This document shows, one piece after another, positions 94 to 51,540 of a stretch of DNA of 64,000 nt. Where the stretch lies: contig NZ_CP047898.1 of assembly GCF_009911795.1 (NCBI RefSeq), positions 2,418,001-2,482,000 on the forward strand, in the 5' to 3' direction. Position 1 is the stretch's first letter, and the number at the start of each line of letters is the position of its first letter. The position numbers and the translations under genes are program-made. Source of the DNA: Pseudarthrobacter psychrotolerans (lineage in GTDB: Bacteria; Actinomycetota; Actinomycetes; Actinomycetales; Micrococcaceae). The notes under the pieces are model-generated. The model made no database searches and was not told the origin of the DNA. It saw nothing but the letters and a program-made list of their open reading frames with translations.

Positions 94-153
94 GTTGATC
101 TATCAGGTCGCGTCGCTCTGGAGGCTGAGAACGACTGTAAGTGATGGATCAAC
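94..153. repeat. Intergenic hairpin, GTTGATCTATCA family (decayed copy)
   Basis: The outer arms GTTGATCTATCA (94-105) and TGATGGATCAAC (142-153) pair with one mismatch, but the inner arms no longer pair well. The outer arms match better preserved copies at 28359-28419 and 50605-50671. Confidence 0.7.
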
Positions 154-180
154 ATGGTTACAGCGAGCGTGCGGACTACG

Positions 181-473
181 GTGCGGCTTTTCTGCGGATT
201 ACTTCGATTCCGAAACCACCACGATCGAAAACGTCTTCCCCGCCGAATCCACCCGCCCGCAGCCGTCCGTAGCCAACGGGGCCGCCGGCGCGGGCGGCAC
301 TGTCGGCGGCGTTCCCGGTGATGTTCACTCTCCCCACCAGCGGCATCGGGACCTCGGCCGACGGGCAGTCGATTGTGCTGACCGATCCGGGAGCCATCGG
401 CGCCATCTCGGCCGCCATGGCCGCGGACACTCTGGGCGGCTACGCGGCAGCCGACGGCCTGGCGGGTTCCTAG
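181..473 (+). pseudogene. Remnant of an LCP (LytR-CpsA-Psr) family gene with two internal deletions
   Basis: Three pieces line up in order with the intact LCP gene region downstream. Bases 181-200 match its upstream sequence near 3104-3123. Bases about 203-290 match its post-membrane segment (ESTRPQPSV shared). Bases 318-473 match its last 50 codons, reading VMFTLPTSGIGTSADGQS and ending in a TAG at 471. The start, the membrane anchor and the whole catalytic LCP domain are missing, and the two coding pieces are in different frames. It cannot make a working protein. It looks like a duplicated paralogue that has been gutted. Confidence 0.8.
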
Positions 474-496
474 GGTGTGCTGTTAGGCAGGACTTT

Positions 497-913
497 CTAG
501 GCAGGGCGGCGCAGCCGGACCGGCCGGGAAACCGGCGCCTTGGCTGTCTCTCCGGCTTCCCGCATCCGGGGGACGGCGAAGCTCACCACCAAGCGGGCGT
601 TGGCGTCGTCCGTGGACCTGATGGTCAGGCTCCTGGTGCCGGGCGGCAGGGACGGAGTGAAAACCTGCAGGTTCCGGGTGCCCACACTGGCTGAATCCCG
701 GAGCGTGTAAGGGGTACCCCAATGATCTTCGATGGCAATCTCAGGGACGGCTCTGGCGGCAGCGGATTCCACGTGGATGTTGACCACCAGGCACGTGCTC
801 CAGACTTCGACCGAGAGTACCGTGAACTCAGCGCCGGGTGTCAGGTGCAGGCCGTACGTGGGCGGCAGGAGCATCTTCCGGAGGATGCCTTTCGGAATTA
901 AGTTTCGCATCAT
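497..913 (-). CDS. Uncharacterised small protein (138 aa)
   Basis: The product is not recognised. It has a short basic N-terminus (MMRNLIPKGILRK), no clear signal peptide or membrane segment, and alternating hydrophobic residues suggesting an all-beta fold. The ATG at 913 is chosen over an upstream TTG at 922 and a second ATG at 910; a G-rich stretch lies directly upstream. Codon use is normal for the window, so a real gene is likely. Its 3' end faces the LCP remnant. An AT-rich stretch at 921-955 is the probable promoter. Confidence 0.55.
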   Translation of the reverse strand: MMRNLIPKGILRKMLLPPTYGLHLTPGAEFTVLSVEVWSTCLVVNIHVESAAARAVPEIAIEDHWGTPYTLRDSASVGTRNLQVFTPSLPPGTRSLTIRSTDDANARLVVSFAVPRMREAGETAKAPVSRPVRLRRPA

Positions 914-1083
914 CGCCCCCAAAATTTACTAAGAGTGCTTACAATTAGCCCGCGATAATGACGCCCTGTCAAGGTCCTGGCCAGGGTCCTGTGGCAACCC
1001 ACAACAGCTCAAGTTAACCCGCGCCACACCGGGTGTTCATCCGGGGGAAACGGGCCGTGTCTTCGCCTCCTGCAGGGTGGGTC

Positions 1084-2747
1084 ATGACTGATATCTCACG
1101 CCGCACCATCGTCAAGGGTTCCGTACTCGCCGCAGCGCTGGCGGCCACGCCCGCCGCCGCGAACGCCAGCAGCTTCCCGGCCGGCCGGACCGGGATCCCG
1201 CTGGTCCGGAACCGCCTCACCCTGCCCAGCGGCATCGCCACCGGTGACGTCACTTCCGATTCCGCCGTGCTCTGGTCCCGCTCCTCGGCCGCGGGCCGGA
1301 TGACCGCCACCCTCCGCGCGGTGGGAGCCGGCGGCGAAATCCTGCGCGGCCGCGGAGCCTTCGAACGCACCCTCCGCGGACCCCGGGCCACCCAGGCCTC
1401 CGACTTCACGGCCAAAATCCACGCCGGCAACCTGCCATCCAACACCCGCTTCGCACTGGAGATCAGTTTCGAGGACGACGGCGGCGCGGCCGGCGAGACC
1501 GCCAAGGGAACCTTCCGCACGGCACCCGACGCCGGGACCTTCAACGGGGAGGGACGCACCGGCGGCGACACCCCGCCGTCGTCCGCCCAAAGCTTTGTCT
1601 GGACCGGCGACACCGCCGGCCAGGGCTGGGGCATCAACGAGGAGATCGGCGGCATGCGCGGCTACCGGGCCATGCACAACACCCGGCCCGACTTCTTCAT
1701 CCACTCCGGCGATACCATCTACGCCGACGGCCCCATCGCCGAAACCGTGGTCGAAAATGACGGCCAGGTGTGGCGCAACCTTGTCACGGAGGAAGTCTCC
1801 AAGGTGGCCGAAACGCTCACCGAATTCCGCGGCCGGCACCGCTACAACTCCCTGGACGCCAACATGCGCGCCATGTTCGCCGACGTCCCGGTGATCGCCC
1901 AGTGGGACGACCACGAGACCCACAACAACTGGTACCCCGGCCAGATCATCGACGACGCCCGCTACACCGTCCGCGACGCCAATACCCTCGCAGCGCGTGG
2001 CCGGCAGGCGTGGCAGGAGAACATGCCCCTCGCTGACAGTTCCGCGCTGTGGCGCCCGGGAACGTTCGACGACGGCGGGCAGTACCAGCCGGCCCGCATC
2101 TACCGGAAAATCCCCCGCGGTCCGCAGCTTGATGTGTTCTGCCTGGACATGCGCACCTTCAAGTCGCCCAACACGGACGGCAAGGAGGCCTACGCCACCT
2201 CCATCCTTGGCCAGGAGCAGGTGGACTGGCTGATCCGCGAGGTTTCCAAGTCCAAGGCGACCTGGAAAGTGATCGCCGCGGACCTGCCCCTGGGCATTAT
2301 CGTCCCGGACGGTGCCGTGAACCAGGAAAGCCTGGCCAACCGCGACCCCGGTGCGCCGCTGGGCCGCGAGCTCGAAATCGCCGGGGTGCTGAGCGCGTTC
2401 AAGCGGAACCGGGTGAAGAACGTAGTGTGGCTGACGGCCGACGTGCACTACTGCGCCGCCCATCATTACTCCCCGAACGCGCGGCCTTCACGGACTTCGA
2501 TCCGTTCTGGGAGTTCGTGGCCGGCCCCATCGCAGCCGGATCGTTCGGGCCCAACCCGATGGACGGGACGTTCGGACCCGAGGTGGTATTCGCCAGGGCC
2601 GGACGGTTCCCTGGCGAATCACCGCGCGACGGCGAGAACCAGTTCTTCGGCCACGTACAGCTGGGCGAGGATGAAAGCTTCACCGCAAGCCTGCGGAACG
2701 CCAACGGCGCCGTAGTGTTTTCCAGGGTTCTCACCCCCGAACGGTGA
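1084..2747 (+). CDS. phoD: PhoD-like alkaline phosphatase/phosphodiesterase, exported by Tat, with a frameshift
   Basis: The N-terminus MTDISRRTIVKGS carries a twin-arginine motif (R6-R7) followed by an alanine-rich hydrophobic stretch, so the enzyme should be folded in the cytoplasm and exported. A PhoD N-terminal beta domain is followed by the metallophosphatase core: GDTIYADG (about residues 209-216), DDHETHNN (275-282) and ADVHYC (about 452-457). These residues bind the metal centre in the family. The frame breaks near base 2473: the C-terminus (FTDFDPFWEFVAGP onward, stop at 2745-2747) is one frame away. Adding one C to the CCCC run at 2472-2475 restores 554 residues. This may be a sequencing error. 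ATG 1084 fits the Tat signal better than an upstream GTG. Confidence 0.85.
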
Positions 2748-2752
2748 GGGAT

Positions 2753-2775
2753 GGCCCCCGGCGATGCCGGGGGCC
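2753..2775 (+). terminator. Hairpin terminator after the PhoD-like gene
   Basis: GGCCCCCGG and CCGGGGGCC form a perfect stem around a five-base loop, six bases past the stop codon. It lacks a long T-tract, as is common in high-GC actinobacteria. Confidence 0.65.
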
Positions 2776-2961
2776 ACCGTATCGGGAGGGTCACCCGCAG
2801 ACTGCCGATGCGCTGGCTGGCGCTGTGGCGTGCCCAAACGGCTAATCGCCCTCTAGAGGCAGATGAAAAAGAGACGCGTCCGGATCCTCCCGGTAATGCT
2901 GTTCTAGCACCGGGAGGAGGACGGTTCAAGGGGTTCCGGCGGGTAACTTAGCTGCGTGTCC

Positions 2962-3063
2962 AAACGCTCTCTCACATCCTGCCGGTTTTCCGGCGACGCT
3001 CTCACCTCCGGCCTGGCGTAGAGAGAGCGTTTCGGATTTGGCTGCGGAAAGTGAGAGAGCGTT
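2962..3063. repeat. Four-armed CTCTCTCAC intergenic repeat
   Basis: Left arms lie at 2962-2985 (AACGCTCTCTCACATCC) and 2995-3008. Right arms lie at 3018-3032 (GTAGAGAGAGCGTTT) and 3050-3063 (GTGAGAGAGCGTT). The layout of two left and two right arms matches the copy at 25544-25651. Confidence 0.75.
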
Positions 3064-3165
3064 GATGCCGGGCCCCGCAGTCATACTTCAGCTGTGGATT
3101 ATTGTGCGGCTTTTTTGCGGATTCCCCTGATGTAACGCCCCCGCTGCCGGTGCTAATTTTCGGAA

Positions 3166-4263: not shown

Positions 4264-4326
4264 GGCGGCGCTACCCCGGTAGCGAACGGCGGCCTTTTTG
4301 TCCGCCCGGCTCTATATATTGAAGGC

Positions 4327-6576
4327 ATGACCCAGACTCCGCTGCAGGATTCCGCCAACCCTTCCGCCGCTACCGCCCCTGCGCCGCCCGCGCCCCCCGT
4401 GGCCAAGAAGGTCCCGCACGAGCGGACGCACCATGGCGACACGTTCGTGGACAACTTCGAATGGCTGCGCGAGAAGGAATCCGCCCAGGTGGTGGAGCAC
4501 CTGAAGGCTGAGAACGCCTACCAGGAGGCGGTTACCGCCCACCAGGAGCCGCTGCGGGAGGCCATCTTCCAGGAAATCAAGGGCCGCACGCAGGAGACAG
4601 ACCTGTCTGTCCCGAACCGCAAGGACGGCTGGTGGTACTTCAGCCGCTCGGTCGAGGGCAAGGAGTACGGCATCCAGTGCCGCGTCCGTGCCCAGGACAC
4701 CGGCAACCCCGTGGCCGACTGGACTCCTCCCGCAGTGGAGGCCGGCGTCGAAATCCCGGGCGAGGAGGTGCTGCTGGACGGCAACATTGAAGCCGAGGGC
4801 AAGCCGTTCTTCTCGGTGGGCGGCTCGGCCGTCACGGTGGACGGGAACCTTTACGCCTACGCCGTGGACAACGCCGGCGACGAACGTTTCACCCTCCGCA
4901 TCAAGGACCTCCGCACGGGTGAACTCCTGCCGGACGTCATCGAGAACATCTTCTACGGCGTCAGCTTCTCCCCGGACGGCACGCGCATTTTCTACACCGT
5001 GGTGGACGATTCGTGGCGCCCGTACCAGGTCAAGTCCCATGCCCTGGGCACCCCCGTCACCGACGATGAGGTGATTTACCAGGAGGACGACGTCGCCATG
5101 TGGCTGGGCTTTGAGGTCTCCTCTGACAGGCGTCACCTCGTGCTGGGCATCGGTTGCTCCGAGTACAGCGAGACCCGCCTGCTGCGTTTTGATGACCCGA
5201 CGGCGGCGCTCACCACCGTGATTTCGCGGGACGAGCGCGTCCTCTATGAGGCCGAACCGTTCCTTTTCACCGGCCCGGACGGTGAAAAGTCGGAACGCAT
5301 CATCATCACGCACAACCGCAACGCCGTGAACTCCATGGTCTCCCTGATCGACCCCGCCGAGCTCGCCAAGCAGCTGGCCGGGCAGCACTGGAGCACCGTC
5401 GTCGAGCATTCCGACGACGTACGCGTCAACGGGGCCGGCGTCACCTCCACGCACCTGATTGTTTCAATCCGCAAGGACACTATCGAGCGCGTCCAGGTGA
5501 TGGGGCTGGCCGGGCTCGGCACCCCCGCGCAGGAAGCCCCGGTGGAACCGGCGTTCGACGAGGAGCTGTACACGGCCGGCGTCGGCGGTTCGGACTACGA
5601 GGCGCCCGTGATCCGGCTGGGCTACACGTCCTACTTCACGCCGTCGCGCGTGTACGACTTTGTGCTGCCCACCCCGGCTTTGCCGCTTGGTGAGCTGCTG
5701 CTGCGCAAGGAAAGCCCGGTGCTGGGCGGCTACTCCGCCGGCGACTACGTGGCCACCCGCGAATGGGCCGACGCCGCCGACGGCACGCGGATCCCCCTGT
5801 CCGTGCTGCGGCACAAGAGCGTCAAGCAGGATTCGACGGCGGCGGGCCTGGTCTACGGATACGGCTCCTACGAACTGAGCATGGACCCGGGCTTCGGCAT
5901 CGCCCGGCTGTCGCTGCTGGACCGCGGCATAGTGTTTGTGATCGCACACATCCGCGGCGGCGGCGAGCTGGGCCGGCACTGGTACGAGGACGGCAAGAAG
6001 CTCACCAAAAAGAACACGTTCACCGACTTTGTGGACGCGACCGACTGGCTGGCCACCTCCGGGTGGGTTGATCCGTCCCGGATTGCGGCGCTGGGCGGCT
6101 CTGCGGGCGGTCTGCTGATGGGTGCCGTGGCCAACCTGGCGCCGGAAAAGTACGCCGCGGTGGTGGCGCAGGTGCCGTTTGTGGATGCGCTCACCACCAT
6201 CCTGGATCCGGAGCTTCCGCTGTCCGCCCTGGAATGGGAAGAGTGGGGCAACCCCATCACGGACCCCGAGGTCTACGCCTACATGAAGTCCTATTCGCCG
6301 TACGAGAATGTGCGTTCAGTCGCTTACCCCAAGGTGGCTGCGGTGACCTCGTTCAACGACACGCGGGTACTCTACGTGGAGCCGGCCAAGTGGGTCCAGG
6401 AGCTGCGGAACAAGACCACCGGCACGGAGCCTGTGGTGATGAAGATCGAGATGGACGGCGGCCACGGCGGCGCCTCCGGCCGGTATGTCCAGTGGCACGA
6501 GCGCGCGTGGGACTACGCGTTCATCGCCGATTCCCTCGGCGCGGGCGAGCTGCTTCCCGGGGCTGGACTGCGATAG
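4327..6576 (+). CDS. ptrB: Oligopeptidase B (prolyl oligopeptidase family S9A)
   Basis: This 749-residue cytoplasmic serine peptidase cleaves short peptides after basic residues. An N-terminal beta-propeller region (about 30-450) precedes an alpha/beta hydrolase domain. The catalytic triad can be placed: Ser592 in GGSAGGLLMG, Asp678 in FNDTRVLYVEP and His713 in GGHGGASGRY. The run WEEWGNP before the Asp is typical of oligopeptidase B. Length fits the family (about 690-750). The start ATG 4327 has a GAAGG site six bases upstream. An intergenic hairpin begins at the base directly after the stop codon. Confidence 0.93.
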   Translation: MTQTPLQDSANPSAATAPAPPAPPVAKKVPHERTHHGDTFVDNFEWLREKESAQVVEHLKAENAYQEAVTAHQEPLREAIFQEIKGRTQETDLSVPNRKDGWWYFSRSVEGKEYGIQCRVRAQDTGNPVADWTPPAVEAGVEIPGEEVLLDGNIEAEGKPFFSVGGSAVTVDGNLYAYAVDNAGDERFTLRIKDLRTGELLPDVIENIFYGVSFSPDGTRIFYTVVDDSWRPYQVKSHALGTPVTDDEVIYQEDDVAMWLGFEVSSDRRHLVLGIGCSEYSETRLLRFDDPTAALTTVISRDERVLYEAEPFLFTGPDGEKSERIIITHNRNAVNSMVSLIDPAELAKQLAGQHWSTVVEHSDDVRVNGAGVTSTHLIVSIRKDTIERVQVMGLAGLGTPAQEAPVEPAFDEELYTAGVGGSDYEAPVIRLGYTSYFTPSRVYDFVLPTPALPLGELLLRKESPVLGGYSAGDYVATREWADAADGTRIPLSVLRHKSVKQDSTAAGLVYGYGSYELSMDPGFGIARLSLLDRGIVFVIAHIRGGGELGRHWYEDGKKLTKKNTFTDFVDATDWLATSGWVDPSRIAALGGSAGGLLMGAVANLAPEKYAAVVAQVPFVDALTTILDPELPLSALEWEEWGNPITDPEVYAYMKSYSPYENVRSVAYPKVAAVTSFNDTRVLYVEPAKWVQELRNKTTGTEPVVMKIEMDGGHGGASGRYVQWHERAWDYAFIADSLGAGELLPGAGLR

Positions 6577-6641
6577 CCCATCGATTGCTCCGTAACCGCC
6601 GTTTTCAGTGCTCAAAAGGGCCGTTATGGAGCAATCGATGG
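6577..6641. repeat. Intergenic hairpin, GATTGCTCC family (copy 1)
   Basis: The arms CCATCGATTGCTCCGTAAC and GTTATGGAGCAATCGATGG pair almost perfectly around an inner TTTT/AAAA stem. It starts with no gap after the ptrB stop codon. Confidence 0.85.
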
Positions 6642-8220: not shown

Positions 8221-8282
8221 CCATCGATTGCTCCGTAACCGCCGTTTTCAGCGCTCAAAAGGGCCATTACGGAGCAATCGAT
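8221..8282. repeat. Intergenic hairpin, GATTGCTCC family (copy 2)
   Basis: Arms CCATCGATTGCTCCGTAA and TTACGGAGCAATCGAT flank an inner GTTTTCAG/CTCAAAA stem. It ends 17 bases from the stop codon of the leftward acetyltransferase gene. Confidence 0.85.
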
Positions 8283-8298
8283 TACCGGAATCGTTCCC

Positions 8299-8856: not shown

Positions 8857-8880
8857 GGACTGAGGCTACCCCGCGGCCCG

Positions 8881-8940
8881 TCCATTGCTCCGTAACTGCC
8901 GTTTTGGGCGCCCAAAAGGGCCGCTACGGAGCAATCGATG
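8881..8940. repeat. Intergenic hairpin, GATTGCTCC family (copy 3), supplying the ackA stop codon
   Basis: Arms TCCATTGCTCCGTAACTGCC and GCCGCTACGGAGCAATCGAT pair with few mismatches. The ackA reading frame runs into the right arm, and its TAG stop (8926-8924) lies inside it. Confidence 0.85.
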
Positions 8941-10089
8941 AGTGGACGACGGCGGCAGTCGCCTCTGCGATGGCGCGCTCCTCGTCGGTGGGCACCACCA
9001 ACACCGGGATGACGGAGGCAGCCGTGGAAATCACCCGCGGTTCCTTGGACCGCTGACTGTTCAGGCCGACGTCGAGCTCTATCCCCAGCGCACGCAGCCT
9101 GTCAGTCACCAGTGCGCGGAACTGGTGCGAGTTCTCGCCGATCCCCGCCGTGAACACGAGTGCTTTGGCGCCCCCGACGGCCACGTGGTAGCCGCCGATG
9201 TACTTGGCCAGCCGGTAGGACGCGACCGCGAGCGCCATTGAAGCCTTGGCGTCGCCGGCCTCTGACGCCTCCACCACCGAGCGCATGTCGTTGTTCCCGG
9301 CGAGCCCCTTCAGCCCCGATTCGCGGTTGAGCATGGTGTCGATGTCCTCCGGAGTCCAGCCGTTCCGGCCGAGGAATACCAGGATGGAGGGATCGAGGTC
9401 GCCTGAGCGGGTGCCCATCACCAGGCCCTCCAGCGGCGTGAAGCCCATGGAGGTGTCCACCGAATGACCGCCCCGGATGGCCGTGACGGAGGCGCCGTTC
9501 CCCAGGTGGGCGATCACGCCGTCGAACTCGTCCACGGGCAGATCCAGCAGCGCGGCAGCGCGCTGCGTGACGTACTCATGCGAGGTGCCGTGGAAGCCAT
9601 AGCGGCGGATGCCGTGGTTCGTATAGAGCTCGTCCGGGACGGCATAGCGCCAGGCGTGCTCGGGCAGGGTGCGGTGGAAAGCGGTGTCGAACACGGCCAC
9701 CTGCGGCAGGTCCGGCCACTTCCTGCTGATGGCTCGGATGCCCAGGACGCTGGCGGGGTTGTGGAGCGGCGCCAGCGGGTTAAGCCGCTCGATGGCGCGG
9801 GTGATCTCGTTGTCGATCAGCACCGGCTCGGCGAACCGCTCGCCGCCGTGCACCACGCGGTGGCCCACCGCCGCCAACTCGAGGTCCCCGAGCTCGGCAT
9901 GGATCGCGGAGTCCACCTGTTCCAGTGCCTCCGCATGGTCCCGGGGCCCTCGATTTCGCCATCGCCATCGCCGCCGTTGCCCATGCCGATCTCCTCGATC
10001 AGCCCTTCGGTCAGCACAATGCCGGCGGCCACGTCACGGACCTGGTACTTGAGCGAGGACGAACCGGAATTGATGACGAGCACAAGCAT
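8924..10089 (-). CDS. ackA: Acetate kinase, with a frameshift near the N-terminus
   Basis: The enzyme makes acetyl phosphate and ADP from acetate and ATP, or the reverse, and works with Pta. The N-terminus LVLVINSGSSSLKYQV is the family signature. The rest (GHRVVHGGERF, AVFDTAFHRTLP, RRYGFHGTSHEYV, HLGNGASV, MGTRSGDLDP, FTAGIGENS) follows in another frame. The break lies near 9940-9946. Adding one base to the CCC/GGGG run there gives 388 residues, a normal length. The last residues (SSIAP) and stop come from the hairpin at 8881-8940. Because the enzyme is otherwise perfect, a sequencing error is more likely than a dead gene. pta is not adjacent. Confidence 0.9.
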
Positions 10090-12589: not shown

Positions 12590-12658
12590 CAACCTCCGCG
12601 AGAAGGCACTTCGCGGCAGTGTTTGCGGAAGACATTGCCGCGAAGTGCCATCTCGTTG
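12590..12658. repeat. Intergenic hairpin, GCGAGATGGCA family (copy 1)
   Basis: The left arm CCGCGAGAAGGCACTTCGCGG pairs with the right arm CCGCGAAGTGCCATCTCG. CAACC and GTTG lie at the outer ends. It is nearly identical to the copy at 18518-18586. Confidence 0.85.
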
Positions 12659-16641: not shown

Positions 16642-18468
16642 GACACCGCTGAACAAAGGGCGATCTGGCCGGTAGTGCTCGCTGGTGCCGGGTTGTTGGC
16701 GGTTCGGGCGTCCGGCTGGTGGGGGTTACCGGTTTATCTTGGCGGAGCCGGGAGGGTTTGCGGAACGGTTTTTTGGGGCTGCGGTGGCGGAGGTGTGCTG
16801 CGGACGCCAATGCCGGGCCGGCTCTCCGGGGGCTCTAGGTGATGGCCCAGGTCCCGTTGATGTTGGCAAGTCCGAGATTGACCATCCGGCGCAGGTTCAG
16901 TCCTGCCGTGCGCAGGGTGAGCCAGGTGTTGTTCCTGGCGACGCCGAGGTAGGGGACGCGCCGGTTACCGCGGGTGAGCCAGGCGATGGAGCGTTCGACC
17001 ATGGGACGGTGGCGGCGGTAGGTTTCGGCGAAGTCGGGGTCCTGGGCTCGGGCCCGGTGTTCGCGCTGGAGCGCGTCATGGGGATGCAGAGTCAGGGATT
17101 TGCCGTCCCGGGCGGTGGTGCACCGGTCCCTGAAAGGGCAGCCGAGGCAGGCGGCACCGAAGGTGACGTTGCGTTTGGGGCTGATCTTCCGGGTGACGTT
17201 GTTTGGGCAGGTCACGGTGCCAGCGGCCTCGTCGACGCTGAAGTCATCGAGGGTGAACCCGCCGATCACGGCCGGGCGCAGCGGCCAGGGCTTGATCACC
17301 GGGGTGTGTCCGGCCGCGGCGACGGCAGCGAGCATCTCTCCGGTGCCGTAGGCGGAATCGGCGAGCACTTCCACCGGCGCCGGCCCGATGGTGGTGTCCT
17401 TGCCCAGCAGTTCCGCGCCGACGGCCGCGTCGCCGTTGCCCGGTCCGGAGGCCTTGGTCAGGGCGGACGCGGTGATGATCCCGGTATCGGGCTCGATCAC
17501 GATATGGGCCTTGAACCCGTCCTGGCGTCTGGCCTGGGTCTTGTGGGCGTGCCGGGCCTCCGGGTCAACGGTGGAGATCACCCGGTCATAGGCGGTTTTC
17601 CGGGCGATCCGCCATCGTCCGTCGGTACCGTCAGAGCCTTCGGCGGGCTCGACGTCCTGGCCGGAAACCAGCGCCAGCAGGGCCACGGCATCCGCGGCTT
17701 TGCCTTCCAGATCGGCGGTATCGATGGCGGCCAGCAGCGCCAGAGCGTCCGTGACCAGGGCGGAGACCAGCTCGTCCCGGGCCGCGGGATCATCCCAGGC
17801 GATCCGGGGTTTGCCCGGCTGCGTGTAGTCGTAGCCGGTGCAGACCGCGGGGACCAGCATATCCGCGCCGGGCACCTCCCGGCCGACCCGGCGGATCGCG
17901 GCGACCAGCTGCGTGACGGTGTCCTGACGGGCCACCGCATCATCGAGGACGGTCGAATCCAGCGCCCGCCGCGTCCTGGATTTCAGCACGCCGGTCTCGG
18001 CGACCACGGCGGCGATGGCCTGGAAAATCCGGTCCGGGCGGCCGCTGGCGGCCAGGCGCTTGCGCCAGTACGTCAACGTCGTCGGATGAAACGCCTTCGT
18101 GGTCACGGCGAACCCGCAGGCCGCTTTCCAGCGCAGATCAAAAGTCACCGCTTCCGCGGCCTCGCGGTCCGAGAGCCCGTTCAACGCTTGCAGGACCAAC
18201 ACCGTGGCCACGACCTCGGCCGGAATCGAGGGCCGGCCCCTGCCCGACGGGAACAGGTCCTCAAACATCGACGACGGGAACAACCTCCCCCGGTTCCCAG
18301 CCAGAAACGCGAAGACGCTGCCTGGGTCCAAAAGGTCCCCGGCCAGCGCCTCAACATCCAAGATTTCCCGCTGCCCATCATCACGACCCTGCATAAATCA
18401 AGTCTTAACGATCCGCAGCCAGAGTCCCGCAGGCGCGCCTTAATGCGCAGGACTAAATCAGCAGTGTC
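16642..18468 (-). mobile_element. Complete IS1182-type insertion sequence (1827 bp) with CTAG target duplication
   Basis: The left end GACACCGCTGA (16642-16652) and the reverse complement of the right end GACACTGCTGA (18458-18468) form terminal inverted repeats with one mismatch. Both ends are flanked by CTAG (16638-16641 and 18469-18472), a four-base target duplication. Removing the element and one CTAG leaves GCCTAGGC, a palindromic target. One intact transposase gene fills the element. Confidence 0.88.
16835..18394 (-). CDS. IS1182 family transposase
   Basis: This 519-residue protein has the family layout. The N-terminal segment covers RGRPSIPAEVVATVLVLQAL and LSDREAAEAVTFDLRWK, with a DDE-type core including ALDSTVLDDAV, VLADSAYGTGE and ERSIAWLTRGNRRVPYLGV. 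A cysteine pair (CLGCPFRDRC) lies before the C-terminal part, as in other members. It looks complete and is the only gene of the element. ATG 18394 is used. Confidence 0.92.
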   Translation of the reverse strand: MQGRDDGQREILDVEALAGDLLDPGSVFAFLAGNRGRLFPSSMFEDLFPSGRGRPSIPAEVVATVLVLQALNGLSDREAAEAVTFDLRWKAACGFAVTTKAFHPTTLTYWRKRLAASGRPDRIFQAIAAVVAETGVLKSRTRRALDSTVLDDAVARQDTVTQLVAAIRRVGREVPGADMLVPAVCTGYDYTQPGKPRIAWDDPAARDELVSALVTDALALLAAIDTADLEGKAADAVALLALVSGQDVEPAEGSDGTDGRWRIARKTAYDRVISTVDPEARHAHKTQARRQDGFKAHIVIEPDTGIITASALTKASGPGNGDAAVGAELLGKDTTIGPAPVEVLADSAYGTGEMLAAVAAAGHTPVIKPWPLRPAVIGGFTLDDFSVDEAAGTVTCPNNVTRKISPKRNVTFGAACLGCPFRDRCTTARDGKSLTLHPHDALQREHRARAQDPDFAETYRRHRPMVERSIAWLTRGNRRVPYLGVARNNTWLTLRTAGLNLRRMVNLGLANINGTWAIT

Positions 18469-18517: not shown

Positions 18518-18586
18518 CAACCTCCGCGAGATGGCATTTCGCGGCAGTGTTTTCGAAAGACATTGCCGCGAAGTGCCATCTCGTTG
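18518..18586. repeat. Intergenic hairpin, GCGAGATGGCA family (copy 2)
   Basis: Arms CCGCGAGATGGCATTTCGCGG and CCGCGAAGTGCCATCTCG form a long stem around GTGTTTTCGAAAGAC. The hairpin ends at the base next to the pta stop codon (18587-18589). Confidence 0.88.
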
Positions 18587-20756: not shown

Positions 20757-20820
20757 CCGCGAAATGGCACTTCGTGGCAATGCCCGAGGCCGCGACGGCC
20801 GCCAAATGTCACTCGCGGAG
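20757..20820. repeat. Decayed intergenic hairpin, GCGAGATGGCA family (copy 3)
   Basis: The left arm CCGCGAAATGGCACTTCGTGG and the right arm GCCGCCAAATGTCACTCGCGG still resemble the two good copies, but several pairs are lost. Confidence 0.6.
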
Positions 20821-22753: not shown

Positions 22754-22767
22754 CCCCACCCCTTGAA

Positions 22768-22829
22768 GCGCGAACTGGCAGCTAATGACCTCAAATCCGG
22801 AAATTGAGGTCATCTGCTGCCAGTTCGCG
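22768..22829. repeat. Intergenic hairpin, GCGAACTGGCAG family
   Basis: Arms CGCGAACTGGCAGCTAATGA and TCATCTGCTGCCAGTTCGCG pair with few mismatches, followed inward by CCTCAA/TTGAGG. It probably ends the paaI-paaK transcript. Confidence 0.8.
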
Positions 22830-22904
22830 TTGCGTATGTAGGGCCCGGTTCGGGCGTTGCCGGGGCCTCAACTGGCCGTTCGCGCCGATCGCCGGCACGC
22901 ACAT

Positions 22905-25543: not shown

Positions 25544-25651
25544 CCAACGCTCTCTCACATCCTGCGGTAAAACCCCCAACGCTCTCTCACTTTCCTCAAG
25601 AAAGTGAGAGAGCGTCGGCGGAAAACGTACATTAAGTGAGAGAGCGTCCGG
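25544..25651. repeat. Four-armed CTCTCTCAC intergenic repeat
   Basis: Left arms at 25544 (CCAACGCTCTCTCACATCC) and 25576 (CCAACGCTCTCTCACTTTC) are followed by right arms at 25600 (GAAAGTGAGAGAGCGTCGG) and 25632 (TTAAGTGAGAGAGCGTCCGG). The inner pair forms a near-perfect hairpin. It ends five bases from the paaZ stop codon. Confidence 0.85.
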
Positions 25652-28337: not shown

Positions 28338-28358
28338 CCGTCCACCACCCTCCCTCCG

Positions 28359-28419
28359 GTTGCTCTATCACTCAACGTCGCCATTCCACGCTGATGACGA
28401 CGTTAAGTGATAGATCAAC
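28359..28419. repeat. Intergenic hairpin, GTTGCTCTATCACT family (copy 2)
   Basis: GTTGCTCTATCACTCAACG and CGTTAAGTGATAGATCAAC pair with two mismatches and continue into TCG/CGA. The stop codon of the leftward protease gene (TGA, 28417-28415) lies inside the right arm. Confidence 0.87.
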
Positions 28420-38212: not shown

Positions 38213-38348
38213 CCCATCGGTTGCTCCACACGGGCCCTTTTGACGCCTCATAAGGGCCCGCACGGAGCAATCGATGGAGGGATTGACGGCGGCAGGGTTC
38301 CCTGGCCGAGCTTGCGAGGCGAGGGGGCCGGTGGGGAGCAACCGATGG
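38213..38348. repeat. Intergenic hairpin, GATTGCTCC family (copy 4), with an extra arm
   Basis: Arms CCCATCGGTTGCTCCACACGG and ACGGAGCAATCGATGGAGGG enclose a GC-rich inner stem (GGGCCCTTTTGA / TCATAAGGGCCC). A third arm GGAGCAACCGATGG lies at 38335-38348. The second and third arms are both followed by AGGG(G)ATTGACGG. Confidence 0.8.
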
Positions 38349-39124: not shown

Positions 39125-39190
39125 CCCATCGGTTGCTCCGCAACGGCCGTTTTGAAGCCCCATAAGGGCGGTTGTGGAGCAATCGATGGG
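39125..39190. repeat. Intergenic hairpin, GATTGCTCC family (copy 5)
   Basis: Arms CCCATCGGTTGCTCCGCAAC and GTTGTGGAGCAATCGATGGG pair well. Compared with copy 1, T-A has become C-G in the CAAC/GTTG part, a compensatory change. It begins with no gap after the hydrolase stop codon. Confidence 0.87.
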
Positions 39191-39289: not shown

Positions 39290-40750
39290 CTAGCAGAAGA
39301 GCTCGCTCTTGGGCTCGTTGTTCCTGACCTTCTGCCAGCCCAGCCACAGGACCAGCGCGAAGAACGGGATGGTGGCCAGGGTCCAGAGGCCGAGCTGGAA
39401 TACTTCGCCGGTCTTGCTGGTCATGGTGTCGAAGCCGATCAGCACTGTGATGGCCAGCAGCGCAATGAGTCCGGCCCAGCTGCTCCAGGTTCCGCCGGGC
39501 GCGGGCAGGGAGGAGACCTTGCCCTTCTTCTTGCGCAGCGCGATCTGGCTGGCGAAGATGGCGCCCCAGGTGAAGATCACGCCGATCGATGCGGAGTTGA
39601 GCGCCAGGTCGAAGGCATGGGAGCCGCCGAGCCAGATGTTCAGCAGGATGCCCACGAGGTAGACGGCGCCGATGGCCAGGATGGCGGCGTACGGCACGTG
39701 GCTCTTGGACATCTTGGTCAGCCACTCCGGAGCGTGTCCGTTGTTGGCCATGGTGCGGAAGATCCGGCCGATCGAGTACAGGCCCGAGTTGCAGGAGGAC
39801 AGTGCGGCGGTGATGACGATCATGTTCATCACGTCGCCCATCCAGCCGAGGCCCATCTGCCCGAACACGGTGACGAACGGCGAGGTGCCGGCCACGTACT
39901 GGTCCGAGGGCAACAGCATCGCGAGGAGGGTCACGGAACCGACGTAGAACACCACAATGCGGAAGACCACGGCGCGGATCGCCTTGGGAACTTCCTTGGC
40001 GGGGTCCTGCATTTCACCGGCGGTGATGCCGACGAGCTCAATGCCGTTGTAGGCGAAGATCACGGCGTTCAGGACCAGGATCATCACCAAGGCACCCTTG
40101 GGGAACATGCCGCCTTCGGCTGCGAAGAGGTTGTTCACGGAAGCGTGGCCGTCGCCCACCTGGGCGTTGGTGACCACCATGAAGGTGCCGACGGCCAGGA
40201 AGATCATGATGGCGCCGACCTTGAGGCAGGAGGCCCAGAATTCGAATTCGCCGAACGCCTTGACGCTCAGGAGATTGACGCCCACGAGCAGCAGCAGCGC
40301 TGCGATGGCGGACAGTTCAACAGGCACGTTGGGGAAGAAGAACTGGAAGTACAGTCCGATCGCGATGAGTTCGGCGATGCCGGTCATGGCCCAGTTGATG
40401 AAGTACATCCAGCCGGACAGGTACGCGCCCTTTTTGCCGAACATCTCGCCGGCGTAGCTGACGAAGGAACCCGACGTCTGGCGGTACATGATGAGCTCGC
40501 CCAGGGCCCGCATCAGCAGGTAGGCGATGACGCCGGCAATGGCGTAGGAGAAGATGAGGGCGGGGCCAGTGGAGGCCAGGCGTCCGCCGGCACCCATAAA
40601 GAGGCCGACGCCGATGGCGCCGCCCATGGCAATCATGGTCACCTGGCGGCCGCTCAGGGATTTTTTGTAGCCCTCGGCGCTGAGGGTGGAGTCGACAACG
40701 GCGGATTGCGCCGTCGGGCTCTCGAGTTCTGTGGGGGTACTTTGAGGCAC
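39290..40750 (-). CDS. APC-family amino-acid permease
   Basis: This 486-residue permease has about 12 membrane helices. The first helix carries MIAMGGAIGVGLFMGAGGRL, and later QTSGSFVSYAGEMFG and the loop ITAGEMQDPAKEVPKAI are typical of the AAT group (aromatic, GABA, D-serine/D-alanine/glycine permeases). The exact substrate is not clear. GTG 40750 is preceded by AAGGA. A palindromic operator region lies upstream. It stands alone and ends at a good hairpin. Confidence 0.9.
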   Translation of the reverse strand: MPQSTPTELESPTAQSAVVDSTLSAEGYKKSLSGRQVTMIAMGGAIGVGLFMGAGGRLASTGPALIFSYAIAGVIAYLLMRALGELIMYRQTSGSFVSYAGEMFGKKGAYLSGWMYFINWAMTGIAELIAIGLYFQFFFPNVPVELSAIAALLLLVGVNLLSVKAFGEFEFWASCLKVGAIMIFLAVGTFMVVTNAQVGDGHASVNNLFAAEGGMFPKGALVMILVLNAVIFAYNGIELVGITAGEMQDPAKEVPKAIRAVVFRIVVFYVGSVTLLAMLLPSDQYVAGTSPFVTVFGQMGLGWMGDVMNMIVITAALSSCNSGLYSIGRIFRTMANNGHAPEWLTKMSKSHVPYAAILAIGAVYLVGILLNIWLGGSHAFDLALNSASIGVIFTWGAIFASQIALRKKKGKVSSLPAPGGTWSSWAGLIALLAITVLIGFDTMTSKTGEVFQLGLWTLATIPFFALVLWLGWQKVRNNEPKSELFC

Positions 40751-40796
40751 AACAATTCCTTGTGGGTAGGGGATTGGCCGGCACCGGAAACCCCGA

Positions 40797-40854
40797 GTTT
40801 TGTCCAGCTAATTCGGGATAATCCCGCATTAGGGGTACTTATGTGGACAAAAAC
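40797..40854 (-). promoter_or_regulatory. Nested palindrome upstream of the permease
   Basis: An outer inverted repeat (GTTTTGTCCA at 40797-40806; TGGACAAAAAC at 40844-40854) encloses a perfect palindrome CGGGATAATCCCG (40814-40826). It probably holds one or two operators and the promoter. Confidence 0.55.
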
Positions 40855-40938
40855 TCTCAGGCGTCGAAGGTTCGCGCGGCCTGTCCATCCTACAAGATCC
40901 GAACCGCAGCTAGTGACGCGGGCTACACTCGGGCCCGG

Positions 40939-44297: not shown

Positions 44298-44365
44298 CCG
44301 TTTCGATGGTTCCCTGCGCGTTCGACGGCGGCCGACGTCGAGCGGGCACGGAACCGTCGAAACGG
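44298..44365. repeat. Long hairpin between the nir operon and the ABC-F gene
   Basis: CCGTTTCGATGGTTCC (44298-44313) and GGAACCGTCGAAACGG (44350-44365) pair with one mismatch. A smaller GTCGTGG/CCACGAC pair follows. No gene overlaps it. It lies after the leftward ABC-F gene and could end its transcript. Confidence 0.65.
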
Positions 44366-44414: not shown

Positions 44415-46148
<1,734 letters not shown>

Positions 46149-47748: not shown

Positions 47749-47751
47749 AAC

Positions 47752-47814
47752 CAACGCGGGGTCACTTACGGCCCATGATTCCCCTCGGGATGGGCGCTAA
47801 GTGACCCCGCGTTG
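47752..47814. repeat. Intergenic hairpin, CAACGCGGGGTCA family (copy 1)
   Basis: CAACGCGGGGTCACTTA pairs perfectly with TAAGTGACCCCGCGTTG, and an inner GCCCAT/ATGGGC pair follows. It lies between convergent genes and starts three bases after the DUF4097 stop codon. Confidence 0.9.
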
Positions 47815-47830
47815 CTGTGGGCTGTCCGGA

Positions 47831-48709
47831 CTACCCGACCAGGACCGCGGCGGCTTTCCGGCGGCGGGCCTTCGCCAGCCGGGTGCCGATCAGTCCCTGC
47901 CGGGGGCTGAACAGGTAGACGGCGGCGAACACCACACCCTGGGTGAGCACCACCATGGCGCCCGACGCCGTGTCCAGGTAGTAGCTGAAGTAGATGCCGG
48001 CGATGGAGCAGACGGCTGAAATCACCGGGGCGATGACCAGCATCCGGTTGAAGCGGTCCGTGAGCAGGTAGGCGGTGGCCCCGGGGATGATGAGCATGGC
48101 CACCACCAACACAACACCCACGGTCTGCAGCGCCACCACCGACGTCAGCGCCAGCAGCCCCATGAGCAGCGCCCCCAGCCGCTTCGGGGAGAGCCCGATC
48201 GCGTGGGCATGCGTGGGATCGAACGCGTAGAGGGTCAGGTCGCGGCGCTTCAGGATCAGGATCACGAAAGCCACGACGCCGAGCACCAGCACCTGGATCA
48301 GGTCCGGGATGCTGACGCCCAGGAGGTTGCCGAAGATGATGTGGTTCAGGTCAGTCTGGCTGGGCGTGACGGAAATCAGCACCAGGCCCAGCGCAAACAG
48401 CGAGGTGAACACAATGCCGATGGCGGCGTCCTCCTTCACCCGGCTGGTGTTGCGGACCACGCCGATCAGGGTCACCGCGATCAGGGCGAACACCAGGGCA
48501 CCGAGCGCAAACGGGGCGCCCACAATGTAGGCCAGCACAACGCCGGGCAGCACGGCGTGGGAGACGGCGTCGCCCATCAGGGACCAGCCGATCAGCACCA
48601 GCCAGCAGCTGAGGACAGCACAGACGACGGCGGCGAGCGCGGTGGTGATGATGGCGCGGACCATAAAGTCGTAGCTGAGCGGTTCAAGCAGGATGTCGAG
48701 GAATTCCAT
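47831..48709 (-). CDS. Metal ABC transporter permease (Mn/Fe type)
   Basis: This 292-residue permease of the ABC-3 family has about eight membrane helices. It contains LMGDAVSHAVLPGVVLAY, the conserved ligand-pathway segment, and the DAAIGIVFTSLFALG region. It carries Mn2+, Zn2+ or Fe2+ into the cell with the ATPase and binding protein encoded upstream. The three-gene order and the DtxR-type box before the first gene favour manganese or iron over zinc. It is separated from the ATPase gene by three bases. Confidence 0.9.
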   Translation of the reverse strand: MEFLDILLEPLSYDFMVRAIITTALAAVVCAVLSCWLVLIGWSLMGDAVSHAVLPGVVLAYIVGAPFALGALVFALIAVTLIGVVRNTSRVKEDAAIGIVFTSLFALGLVLISVTPSQTDLNHIIFGNLLGVSIPDLIQVLVLGVVAFVILILKRRDLTLYAFDPTHAHAIGLSPKRLGALLMGLLALTSVVALQTVGVVLVVAMLIIPGATAYLLTDRFNRMLVIAPVISAVCSIAGIYFSYYLDTASGAMVVLTQGVVFAAVYLFSPRQGLIGTRLAKARRRKAAAVLVG

Positions 48710-48712
48710 GGG

Positions 48713-49540: not shown

Positions 49541-50535
49541 GATTTCGCTCCCGGGGAGGCGGTGGAGGTGCCTGCCAGCGCCTTGGTGATGAGCTCGGCG
49601 TCGTGCCTGATCAGGTCCAGGTAGGTGGGTACGGGACCGTCAGCCTCGGACAGCGAATCCACGTAAAGTGTGCCGCCGAACTTGGCTCCGGTGGCGCCCA
49701 CCACCTGCCGCATGGGGGCATCGGACACCGTGGATTCACAGAAGACCGCCGGGACCTGGTTGGCCTTGACGTACTCGATGGCGCGGGTGATCTGCTGCGG
49801 CGTGGCCTGCTGTTCGGCGTTGACCGCCCAGATGTAGACCTCTTTGAGTCCTGCGTCGCGGGCAAGGTAGGAGAAGGCGCCTTCGCAGGTCACCAGGGCC
49901 CGCTGGTTCTCCGGGAGGCCGGCGAGGCTTGCTTTCATCTCGTCCTGCACACCCTGCAGTTCGGCCTTGTAGGCGTCACCGTTGGCCTTGAATACTGCAG
50001 CGTTCTCCGGGTCAAGCTCGCTGAACGCCTTCACCATGTTGTCCGTGTAGATCTGCACGTTCACGGGCGACATCCACGCATGCGGGTTCGGTTTGCCCTG
50101 GTACGAGTCCTCGCTGATGGACATGACCTCCACACCATCACTGACCACGGCGTGCGGCACGTCCAGGCCCTCCACGAACTGCCCAAACCAGGCCTCGAGG
50201 TTCAGGCCGTTGTCCAGGATGAGGTCCGCCTTGGCAGCCTTGCGGATGTCGCCCGGAGTCGCTTCGTAGCCGTGGATCTCGGCGCCCGCCTTGGTGATGG
50301 ACTCCACGGTGAGCTTGTCCCCTGCAACGTTCCGGGCGACGTCGGCCAGTACCGTGAAGGTGGTTAGGACCACGGGCTTCTCACTGTCGCTGTTGCCTGA
50401 CGCGTCACCCCCGCATGCGGTCAGGGACAAGGTCAGGAGGACGACGGCGGCGGTTGCGGCGGCACGGAACGCCGCCGATCCCCCGGCAAGGGTTCGGGCG
50501 GCTATTTCGGCCCGACGAAACAAAAAGTTAGGCAT
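49537..50535 (-). CDS. Metal ABC transporter substrate-binding lipoprotein (Mn/Fe type)
   Basis: This 332-residue cluster A-I binding protein has a lipoprotein signal ending LTACGG. Metal ligands can be placed: His in AEIHGYEATPGD, His in PNPHAWMSP, Glu in TCEGAFSYLA and Asp in LYVDSLSEADG, the His-His-Glu-Asp set of manganese and iron binders rather than the zinc set, whose loop is His-rich. ATG 50535 lies within a DtxR-type operator, so the mRNA may be leaderless; ATG 50544 is an alternative. Confidence 0.9.
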   Translation of the reverse strand: MPNFLFRRAEIAARTLAGGSAAFRAAATAAVVLLTLSLTACGGDASGNSDSEKPVVLTTFTVLADVARNVAGDKLTVESITKAGAEIHGYEATPGDIRKAAKADLILDNGLNLEAWFGQFVEGLDVPHAVVSDGVEVMSISEDSYQGKPNPHAWMSPVNVQIYTDNMVKAFSELDPENAAVFKANGDAYKAELQGVQDEMKASLAGLPENQRALVTCEGAFSYLARDAGLKEVYIWAVNAEQQATPQQITRAIEYVKANQVPAVFCESTVSDAPMRQVVGATGAKFGGTLYVDSLSEADGPVPTYLDLIRHDAELITKALAGTSTASPGAKS

Positions 50536-50541
50536 ACCGAA
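50528..50541 (-). promoter_or_regulatory. DtxR/MntR-type operator overlapping the start of the metal importer operon
   Basis: TTAGGCATACCGAA differs by one base from the symmetric TTAGGnnnnCCTAA form of DtxR-family boxes. The start codon (50535-50533) lies inside it, so a bound metal-loaded repressor would block both transcription and start access. Confidence 0.6.
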
Positions 50542-50604
50542 CATTCTACGGAATGCCGTTCTGGCCCCGCAATGTGACACCCACGCGCGTCGCCCTTCCA
50601 CCCT

Positions 50605-50671
50605 CCCGTTGCTCTATCACTTTTGGTCCCCAAAAGTCCGGTTTGGCGACCAAAAGTGATAGGGCAACGGG
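50605..50671. repeat. Intergenic hairpin, GTTGCTCTATCACT family (copy 3)
   Basis: CCCGTTGCTCTATCACTTTT and AAAAGTGATAGGGCAACGGG pair with one mismatch, and GGTC/GACC extends the stem. The inner arms differ from those at 28359 yet still pair. It lies between divergent genes. Confidence 0.88.
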
Positions 50672-50698
50672 CAGGAAATGGGGAGCTAGGCTGAACGT

Positions 50699-51460
50699 AT
50701 GGCCACCACACACCGGAAACCACCTGCGCCGCAGCCCGGGCTGTACGGGTTTTCCACCCTTGATTTCACCGCCGTCGGCTTCTATGTGGCCGTGGCCGGG
50801 CTCTTTGCCGTGGCCGGGGAACTGCTGGCACCGTTCATCCGCCAGCTTGCCCCCAGCCCCGCCGCGGCATCGTACGCCGTGAACCTCATCTTCTATGGCT
50901 CGATCGGGATACTGGCACTGGCCGCCGCCCGCCGGGTGGTGGCCCGGGACCTGCGCGTGCTGGCCACCCGTCCGTGGTTCACCCTGCTGATGGTGCCCGC
51001 AGCCGTGGTGGCCATGATGATCCTCACCGCGGTTGTGGTGGCGGCCGGGGGCGGGGTGCAGACGTCGGCGAACCAGGCCGGGCTGCAGGCGCTGATCCAA
51101 CAGGTTCCTGCCTGGCTGATGGTGCCGGTCCTGGTGGTAGTGGGCCCGTTCGTGGAGGAGTACATCTTCCGGCACCTGCTGATCGGCAAGCTCAGCCGCC
51201 GGCTCAACATCTGGCTGTGCTGCGCCCTGTCCGTGGTCCTCTTTGCCGGCATCCACATTGCGGGCCAGGAGGCCATCACACTCAGTGCGCTGCTCCCCTA
51301 CCTGGCCATGGGCGCCACGCTGGTCTTTGTTTACGTGTGGACCGGGAAGAACCTGATGTTCTCCTATTTTGTGCACGCGGCGAAGAACCTGCTGGCGGTC
51401 ATCTTCATCTACGCCATCCCGCCCGAGCTCTTCGAGCAGCTGCAGCAGGTCCAGCCCTGA
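50699..51460 (+). CDS. CPBP family intramembrane metalloprotease (CAAX protease-like)
   Basis: This 253-residue protein has about seven membrane helices. It carries the Abi/CPBP motifs EEYIFRHLLIG (Glu-Glu and Arg), HIAGQEA and FSYFVHAAKN, which form the active site of these glutamic/metal-dependent intramembrane proteases. Members process prenylated proteins, bacteriocins or regulators. The substrate is unknown. ATG 50699 follows a purine-rich stretch. It stands alone, with hairpin repeats on both sides. Confidence 0.9.
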   Translation: MATTHRKPPAPQPGLYGFSTLDFTAVGFYVAVAGLFAVAGELLAPFIRQLAPSPAAASYAVNLIFYGSIGILALAAARRVVARDLRVLATRPWFTLLMVPAAVVAMMILTAVVVAAGGGVQTSANQAGLQALIQQVPAWLMVPVLVVVGPFVEEYIFRHLLIGKLSRRLNIWLCCALSVVLFAGIHIAGQEAITLSALLPYLAMGATLVFVYVWTGKNLMFSYFVHAAKNLLAVIFIYAIPPELFEQLQQVQP

Positions 51461-51477
51461 CACCTGGTCAGCCCAAC

Positions 51478-51540
51478 CAACGCGGGGTCAGATATAGCCG
51501 GTGCGTAGCCGCCAGATGGGCCGTATCTGACCCCGCGTTG
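51478..51540. repeat. Intergenic hairpin, CAACGCGGGGTCA family (copy 2)
   Basis: CAACGCGGGGTCAGATA pairs perfectly with TATCTGACCCCGCGTTG. Compared with copy 1, CTTA/TAAG has become GATA/TATC, so both sides changed together. It follows the CPBP protease gene by 17 bases. Confidence 0.9.

Follow-up and report, generated by a model that had tools for sequence, protein, structure and literature searches.

Families of extragenic hairpins resembling REPs at gene ends in Arthrobacter and its relatives

Introduction

To our knowledge, the purpose of extragenic palindromes has been unclear ever since REPs were found. Bacterial MITEs are short, inverted-repeat, non-coding and patchy in their presence, and the hairpins described here share these features. 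REPs of the GTAG- and CGTC-tagged superfamilies have stems of 5-13 or 8-9 bp, GT pairing has been reported within REP stems, and untagged families are mentioned as existing elsewhere (PMC3733652, in part). The words Arthrobacter and actinobacteria are absent from the text of that paper. One table of the RepRanger paper has a row for Arthrobacter livingstonensis (PMC12306157, in part). Among the full-text matches listed from the open-licence literature, no paper dealt with such repeats in Arthrobacter, which is no proof of absence.

Our hairpins resemble REPs, as those are characterized in parts of PMC3733652, in being multicopy extragenic palindromes downstream of coding regions, mostly co-directional or convergent, with several families per genome. 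They differ in that their stems are 22-30 bp rather than 5-13 bp and in that the GT pairing of REP stems is not in excess here, by a weak test. By eye, no unpaired GTAG or CGTC tag was present at the foot of the hairpins in alignments of families D and A with their flanks. With the REPIN/RAYT system they share an inverted arrangement that folds into a hairpin of similar size, loose at its centre, and a family-specific recognition sequence (PMC3116915 and PMC8266576, both in part). Unlike that system, they occur without Y1/RAYT in their own and in sampled same-genus genomes, and their arms are frozen at orthologous sites. They are also similar to the repeated stem-loop sequence families obtained from genome scans (PMC2267715, in part), a paper whose text does not contain the word Arthrobacter. 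Like intrinsic terminators, the hairpins stand at 3' ends, many of them between convergent genes. However, T-rich 3' ends (at least 4 T of 9) are rare here, at 13/82 compared with 41/120 for other hairpins near stops (P = 0.003), and the arm sequence is common to unrelated genes.

We read the hairpins as untagged REP-like extragenic palindromes of Arthrobacter and relatives, whose tested features misfit the described REP families and whose resident copies would be kept through recognition by a host protein, more likely as DNA. We give this reading, both parts taken jointly, a probability of roughly 0.5.

Results and discussion

Hairpin families in the window

A hairpin scan of the window, by which we mean the whole 64-kb stretch of DNA analyzed, returned 21 hairpins. 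Using nhmmer with families A-F, we recovered 15 repeat-family elements (Table 1), in line with the original prediction of about fifteen hairpins of some 60 bases. Two more are extra to these 15: a relic at 94, which nhmmer missed at E 0.01 although it is visible by eye, and, at 44298, a hairpin of an additional family. Stem length in the window is mostly 22-30 bp for these families, and one ungapped call reaches 38. Genes were called with a codon-usage caller written for this analysis, not with a standard annotator.

The modular build that had been proposed, with an outer arm common to a family and a differing inner part, was confirmed. CTTA/TAAG at 47752 becomes GATA/TATC at 51478, and TAAC/GTTA at 6577 becomes CAAC/GTTG at 39125, where one pair changes. 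The change from AACGTCG/CGACGTT at 28359 to TTTGGTC/GACCAAA at 50605 is also present in the sequence. However, since the copy at 28357 carries a family H inner stem, this is a module swap and not the base-by-base covariation it had been taken for. Rfam had no family at gathering score in the 64-kb window, which agrees with the earlier statement that no named family was known for these hairpins, yet they belong with a known, REP-like kind.

Table 1. Hairpin elements of the 64-kb window and their surroundings.
Element	Position	Strand	Remarks
Relic hairpin	94..153	.	B-like outer arm (GTTGATC...GATCAAC), inner part H-like; read by eye
Family C, partly decayed	2967..3059	.	Half-sites 86 nt apart
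Family A hairpin	6578..6641	.	Adjoins stop codon of gene 4327-6576
Family A hairpin	8222..8283	.	Flanking genes co-directional
Family A hairpin	8879..8940	.	Overlaps 3' end of gene 8924-9916; absent here in relative G331
Family E hairpin	12599..12655	.	Scan and nhmmer
Family E hairpin	18527..18583	.	Stop of gene 18587-20665 at 3 nt
Degenerate family E element	20761..20811	.	Flanking genes divergent
Family F hairpin	22767..22831	.	Scan and nhmmer
Family C nested element	25550..25644	.	Half-sites >><<, spacing 32/24/32; kept in relative G331
Chimera, B outer arm and H inner stem	28357..28418	.	B and H seeds both match; kept in G331
Family A hairpin	38214..38277	.	No hairpin at same place in G331
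Family A hairpin	39125..39190	.	Flanking genes convergent
Family M hairpin, CCGTTTCGATGGTTCCCTGC	44298..44365	.	In relatives: downstream of gene at 47831-48709
Family D hairpin	47752..47814	.	Flanking genes convergent
Family B hairpin	50605..50671	.	Divergent genes; just upstream of gene 50699-51460
Family D hairpin	51478..51540	.	17 nt past stop of gene 50699-51460

Placement at gene ends

Most copies were predicted to lie within 20 bases of a stop codon. This is borne out for 11/15 elements in the window and, over 2.06 Mb of the same chromosome, where we found 82 elements, for 57 of the 75 that have a flanking stop. By comparison, 11% of random intergenic placements (n = 5000) fell within 20 nt of a stop. 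Convergent gene pairs hold 36/82 elements compared with 20% of random placements, while divergent pairs hold 6/82 compared with 29%. Some copies sit upstream of gene starts. Because the same families recur elsewhere on the chromosome and show strong proximity to stop codons, the families of the window are not a product of chance. In other genomes, 59/73 family D copies were within 20 nt of a stop, with 7/84 matches at locus edges omitted; the tests of D in other genomes (length and pairing, placement, GU) used 80/117 D loci. Copies are not found equally inside coding sequence, as 1/82 elements in the 2.06 Mb and 0/77 classified D copies in other genomes lay within a gene.

The proximity to stops, the convergent excess and the divergent deficit would also be expected of RNA-level 3'-end elements, such as bidirectional terminators without a U-tract, 3' stabilizers or RNase III substrates, with pairing selected in RNA. 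Stems of 22-30 bp and the compensating changes of family D (26 vs 5.5, below) suit such elements as well. If the hairpins acted as RNA, however, GU should be commoner than AC on the sense strand, and we counted 44 of each in co-directional copies of the families other than C. This test is weak because the control hairpins near stops (GU:AC of 63:51 when co-directional and 38:20 when convergent) were picked by a caller that itself favors GU. In addition, T-rich ends are fewer than in other hairpins, some copies lie upstream of genes, and the arm sequence is strongly conserved, a feature that a simple stem in RNA would not require. We consider an RNA-level role possible but doubtful. The few T-rich ends, the equality of GU and AC, the copies upstream of gene starts and the half-sites of family C, which are spaced exactly 32 nt apart, suggest that the hairpins more likely act as DNA than as RNA.

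Arm sequence and pairing in family D

Family D was seen in Arthrobacter, Pseudarthrobacter, Paenarthrobacter and one Micrococcaceae MAG, and distribution over genomes is patchy; in the same-genus sample, 15 genomes had D and 9 did not. With lengths of 56-71 allowed, 80/84 copies examined were exactly 63 nt long. In these hairpins the outer arms are strongly conserved, the pairs 17-19 positions in from either end vary, the inner core is again conserved and the loop drifts. We compared one ortholog pair from each of 38 groups. To enter this set, a copy had to be exactly 63 nt long and to have no more than one mismatch in each arm; identical pairs with flanks above 99.5% were dropped. Differences were found at 6/988 positions of the outer arms, 73/228 of pairs 17-19, 16/304 of core 20-23 and 228/494 of the loop. 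The mismatch limit caps arm divergence in this set, and decayed copies are uncounted, but the observed 0.6% is far under the cap. Two-sided changes that keep the inner stem paired numbered 26 compared with 5.5 expected (0/2000 as high).

Covariation had been taken in the original prediction to mean that pairing is selected. For family D, the excess of compensatory changes across the 38 ortholog groups strongly supports this, whereas in family A covariation within this genome is weak (11 two-sided cells vs 7.8 shuffled, 40/500). Within this genome, D itself gave 15 two-sided cells compared with 4.8 shuffled (0/500). Among 76 non-redundant D copies from named genomes, picked by their outer arms only, inner pairing was above the shuffled expectation, with pair 18/46 paired in 75% compared with 35%. 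D arms are almost never solitary, with 34 arms in hairpins and 2 single in 2.06 Mb, and D loops differ widely among copies of one genome. Given the nearly unchanged arms, the drift of the loop and the excess of paired changes, resident D copies appear to have been retained both for the sequence of their arms and for their pairing.

Two-sided changes could also arise without selection for pairing if template-switch (quasi-palindrome) correction copied one arm onto the other. In D block 14-19, the arms differ at at least two of six positions in 31/76 copies, where correction would restore pairing; the block is exactly palindromic in only 30/76, so pairing there is not strict. However, one-sided changes exceeded two-sided paired changes by 75 to 8 at flank identity of at least 88% and by 262 to 135 below it. 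These pair counts are not independent, as they hold repeated comparisons (own copies in several loci, overlapping named and unnamed collections), while the 38-pair result, with one pair per group, is free of that repetition. The dominance of one-sided changes, greatest among close pairs, points to stepwise compensation and not to sudden correction. Correction would also not freeze the arm sequence, and we regard it as a highly improbable source of the pattern.

Under recognition by a host protein, the reading we prefer, a putative protein would recognize the arm sequence in combination with the shape, whether folded or as a long palindrome. Resident copies would be retained through that recognition, more likely at the DNA than at the RNA level, while rare local copying, allele exchange and deletion would spread and remove copies. 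Benefits might include, for example, shielding of convergent gene ends, topological relief or 3'-end processing. Because the arms are frozen, the loop is free and the inner pairs compensate, selection on a repetitive palindrome becomes measurable: the same positions can be traced through related species, and within one hairpin the rate of evolution differs greatly from part to part. Arm and fold together are a defined bait for finding a candidate recognizing protein.

Several points count against a host protein acting on DNA, namely that the preference for 3' ends also fits a role in RNA, that the GU test is weak, that the covariation of family A within this genome is weak and that pairing in D block 14-19 is not strict.

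Other families

Elements of families A, B, D, F and H are 61-63 nt long. When family profiles were compared, limited to copies in which neither query arm had more than one mismatch, A and B had the dip at 17-19 in common with D. Family F departs from this plan, and the profiles of H, K, E and I have only 3-6 copies each behind them. The two E hairpins at 18527 and 12599 are 93% alike, flanks included. In family A, pair 23/40 is mismatched in 10/15 copies; oriented by this mismatch, copies had no fixed direction relative to genes, judged by eye. More speculatively, the hairpins may be a new class of protein-addressed chromosomal palindromes: a common chassis some six helical turns long, with swappable outer "address" arms, each with its own putative reader, and selected at gene ends. 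One such hairpin would be replaceable on the spot by another with a different address, without RAYT transposases. We hold this fuller scheme to be unlikely.

Copies of family A stand around a GNAT gene (about 8222/8879) and a DLH gene (38214/39125). Integron attC sites come with an integron integrase and a conserved core site. The arrangement suggested gene cassettes, but the two enclosed genes are unrelated.

Turnover at single sites

At a given place on the chromosome, related species can have hairpins of different families or no hairpin at all. Across 30 genus genomes, the gap at 39125 held A (5), K (4), another hairpin (2), or others or none. In relatives the 50605 site is occupied by B, by H or by remnants, or is empty; for the 50605/51478 site, we assigned by eye the labels of L197, L203, L204, L215 and L224 and the D calls of L204, L215 and L222. 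In the comparison with relative G331, 10/29 elements were without anchors and 4 more without alignment. Two empty sites, at 2468605 and 2633334, had no clear target-site duplication by eye. Different families at one site, the REP-like kind and the strong conservation of the D arm sequence itself go beyond the original prediction. Copies cluster, and neighboring copies resemble each other (29 D places and 26 A places, excluding one-strand matches and matches below about 40 bits).

Patchy presence both at sites, with empty ones among them, and over genomes, changing families at one site, and clusters of similar neighbors are what selfish hairpins moved in trans by a putative enzyme would leave behind, and conservation would then reflect repeated renewal of copies and not host function. 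Yet orthologous copies have frozen arms with drifting loops, and D loops are diverse within one genome, unlike a recent burst. A search for transposases of the Y1 type (Y1/RAYT, PF01797) gave 0 matches in the own genome and, among 295 genomes of the family, none in those of the same genus, while 11/295 have one. We regard selfish spread as an improbable explanation of the conservation. By eye, local hairpins in 14 loci around the Y1 matches of these 11 relatives were unlike our families. A RAYT origin was rejected on both counts. With the usual transposase missing, this class allows the spread of copies to be told apart from their retention.

The D pattern had no exact match in viral contigs, and one D copy used as query had no match in phages. 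One A copy had no match among 72,556 plasmid records. In the same records, one D copy matched two, both of them megabase replicons of one Arthrobacter strain.

Intergenic hairpins fall into families with shared arms

A hairpin scan found 21 hairpins in the window and recovered all three inner-stem comparisons quoted in the original prediction. We defined families by clustering intergenic hairpins from 2.06 Mb of this chromosome, followed by iterated nhmmer. The chromosome is a 4.96 Mb contig of a 5.17 Mb, three-contig genome, and the window covers its bases 2418001-2482000. Once overlaps were removed, this yielded 82 elements, 15 of them in the window; by fetched stretch, 2 lie at 0-0.4 Mb, 5 at 1.0-1.4 Mb, 50 at 2.02-2.88 Mb and 25 at 3.6-4.0 Mb. 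Whole-genome models gave 29 clear places for family D and 26 for A, every one on the large contig. Both are clustered, with 3 adjacent pairs less than 2 kb apart for D (as many in 8 of 2000 random sets) and 5 for A (0 of 2000), and variable parts are somewhat more alike in neighbouring than in distant copies (permutations 13/2000 and 29/2000).

Both outer arms of D are matched exactly at 117 or more loci in other genomes; those listed all carry the titles Arthrobacter, Pseudarthrobacter, Paenarthrobacter or, for one MAG, Micrococcaceae. Under strict filters, D is present in 44 of 295 genomes of the taxonomic family, 13 of 32 genera and 15 of 24 genomes of the same genus. No viral contig matched the exact D pattern, and no phage record matched one D copy used as query.

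Hairpin families and other features. Element numbers are from clustering and iterated nhmmer over 2.06 Mb; w, window; g, genome.
Feature	Sequence	Elements	Length (nt)	Position
Family A	CATCGATTGCTCC	17	62 in 17/18	w 38214, 39125
Family B	CGTTGCTCTATCACTT	6	63 in 5/5	w 50605
Family C, nested	CGCTCTCTCAC	13		w 25550-25644, 2967-3059; g 391853, 2025845, 2064007, 3699246; others
Family D	CAACGCGGGGTCA	18	63 in 156/166	w 47752, 51478
Family E		9	57	
Family F		5	61 in 5/5	
Family H		10	62 in 7/7	
Family I		2	65	
Family K		4	54 or 64	
Family-I-like hairpin				w 40796-40855
Acetate kinase gene				w 8924-9916
DDE transposase gene				w 16835-18268
Phosphate acetyltransferase gene				w 18587-20665
Palindromic box	TTAGGCATACCGAACATTCTA			w 50528-50548
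TAGGCT stretch	TAGGCT			w 50687-50701
Further hairpin cluster	GACGACGGCGGG...CCCGCCGTCGTC			g 2702845-2872443
Identical hairpin pairs				g 2026037/2288477, 2028390/2290830

Conservation was scored per position from each hairpin end, pooling the two arms across every locus collected. In D it is close to 100% at 1-13, where the query forces part of it, then 74-91% at 14-16, 50-61% at 17-19 and 95-98% at 20-23, falling to 33-50% in the loop. Dips at 17-19, with conservation returning from 20, also occur in A (53-78%, 18 copies) and B (30-50%, 5 copies); F deviates from this plan, being variable at 8 and 15-16. The anatomy of H, E, I and K is based on 3-6 copies. Pair 23/40 of A is mismatched (G-G or C-C) in 10 of 15 copies while neighbours 22 and 24 are always paired, giving a near-symmetric hairpin a direction. 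In the window, the copy at 28357 combines the outer arm of B with the inner stem of H; the B and H seeds both recover it.

Family C is built differently. Its half-sites stand in direct or inverted order at a spacing of exactly 32 nt, as >><< with 32/24/32 spacing at 6 places and in rows at others; all 15 listed places are intergenic. From its layout, C looks more like a DNA-binding array than a simple hairpin, 32 nt being about three helical turns.

Inner stems of family D change by compensation

Within this genome, D showed 15 two-sided cells versus 4.8 when shuffled (0/500), and A, more weakly, 11 versus 7.8 (40/500). Among 76 non-redundant D copies from other genomes, selected by outer arms alone, inner pairs formed above shuffled expectation (18/46, 75% vs 35%; 19/45, 71% vs 42%; 25/39, 83% vs 57%), and block 14-19 was exactly palindromic in just 30 of the 76.

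The strongest pairing test is the comparison of orthologous positions. Matching 161 D copies by flanking sequence gave 38 groups with 134 orthologous pairs in all. With each group represented by a single pair, arms differed at 6/988 positions, a figure conditional on the collection, which holds copies with at most one mismatch per arm. Other differences numbered 32/228 at 14-16, 73/228 at 17-19, 16/304 in core 20-23, 44/152 at 24-25 and 228/494 in the loop. Two-sided changes that kept pairing numbered 26 versus 5.5 expected (0/2000), alongside 67 one-sided changes and 23 two-sided changes without pairing. The hairpins of the original prediction are real and repeated, and their compensation holds up in this comparison by position. 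Over all D pairs, one-sided to two-sided paired changes stood at 75:8 at flank identity of at least 88% and 262:135 below it, as expected for stepwise compensation.

Elements lie near stop codons

Convergent genes flank 36 of the 82 elements (random intergenic placements, 20%), co-directional genes 39 (51%) and divergent genes 6 (29%); 1 is inside a called gene. Most copies had been placed within 20 nt of a stop codon, and this holds for 57 of 75 elements with a flanking stop versus 11% of 5000 random placements. D in named genomes behaves alike: across 80 loci, 39 copies are convergent, 34 co-directional and 4 divergent, none falls inside a gene, and 59 of 73 have a stop codon no more than 20 nt away.

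In the window, the acetate kinase and phosphate acetyltransferase genes are about 8.7 kb apart, and their interval holds a DDE transposase gene and two near-identical family E hairpins. The B hairpin at 50605 sits between two motifs. One is the palindromic box, which adjoins a ZnuA-like gene; the other, six bases 5' of the ATG of gene 50699-51460, is TAGGCT, which we take to resemble a leaderless -10 promoter.

Families can differ at orthologous sites

Much of a 400 kb stretch aligns collinearly with one relative, G331, and nucleotide identity is about 91% in most of the listed blocks. The compared stretch has 29 of our elements, 19 of them anchored: 6 match the same family, 2 another family (own F vs K at 2251227; own K vs F at 2644707), 7 a site without a hairpin and 4 larger rearrangements.

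We compared individual sites across 30 genus genomes. The gap adjoining an amino-acid permease gene (39290-40750) holds A in 5, K in 4 and another, shared hairpin in 2; K can be on either side of the terminator-like hairpin, which leaves its place there inexact. Upstream of the permease gene is a family-I-like hairpin, where relatives' hairpins have quite different stems. Directly 5' of gene 50699-51460, assigned partly by eye, are B in 3, H in 8, remnants in 4 and none in 15. On a gene tree these states showed no clustering relative to shuffled labels (13 changes vs mean 13.4; as low in 98/200), and "none" by itself gave 8 changes versus 10.2 (53/500). One shallow clade holds B (locus L198), H (L200, L201) and none (L199). 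On the 3' side, 8 of 30 genomes have D or a recognisable form of it and 2 have half-remnants (partly by eye); 3' of gene 47831-48709 are D in 3, a remnant in 1, family M in 2 and F in 1. Homologous recombination between species could carry such alleles.

DNA and RNA readings

T-rich ends (at least 4 T of 9) occur in 13 of 82 elements versus 41 of 120 other near-stop hairpins (p 0.003). On the sense strand, co-directional copies hold 44 GU and 44 AC pairs (D in other genomes 21/16; own families without C 23/28), where selection at the RNA level would be expected to favour GU. In control hairpins the counts were 63 to 51, and for convergent genes 38 to 20; the test is weak because the caller that picked them itself favours GU. 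The exact period of C, fixed lengths that we infer to be near six helical turns, and copies 5' of a gene start all point more to DNA; the preference for 3' ends points more to RNA or harmless placement.

The hairpins are REP-like

In behaviour in place and in number the elements resemble REPs, the known extragenic palindromes. Missing are the tag and stem size of the described REP superfamilies, as well as their transposase and GU signature, and we therefore call the elements REP-like, not REPs. The Y1 transposase (PF01797) is absent from this genome; it occurs in 11 of 295 family genomes and in none of the same genus in that sample. By eye, hairpins beside PF01797 genes in relatives are unlike our families. 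It is surprising that arms are frozen while resident copies drift, that different outer arms follow a common plan, and that families are exchanged at one site.

A further cluster of 16 hairpins, partly terminator-like, is dense at 2.70-2.87 Mb of the genome, with members at a few other places. Two pairs of identical hairpins are each about 262 kb apart, which suggests that a segment has been duplicated.
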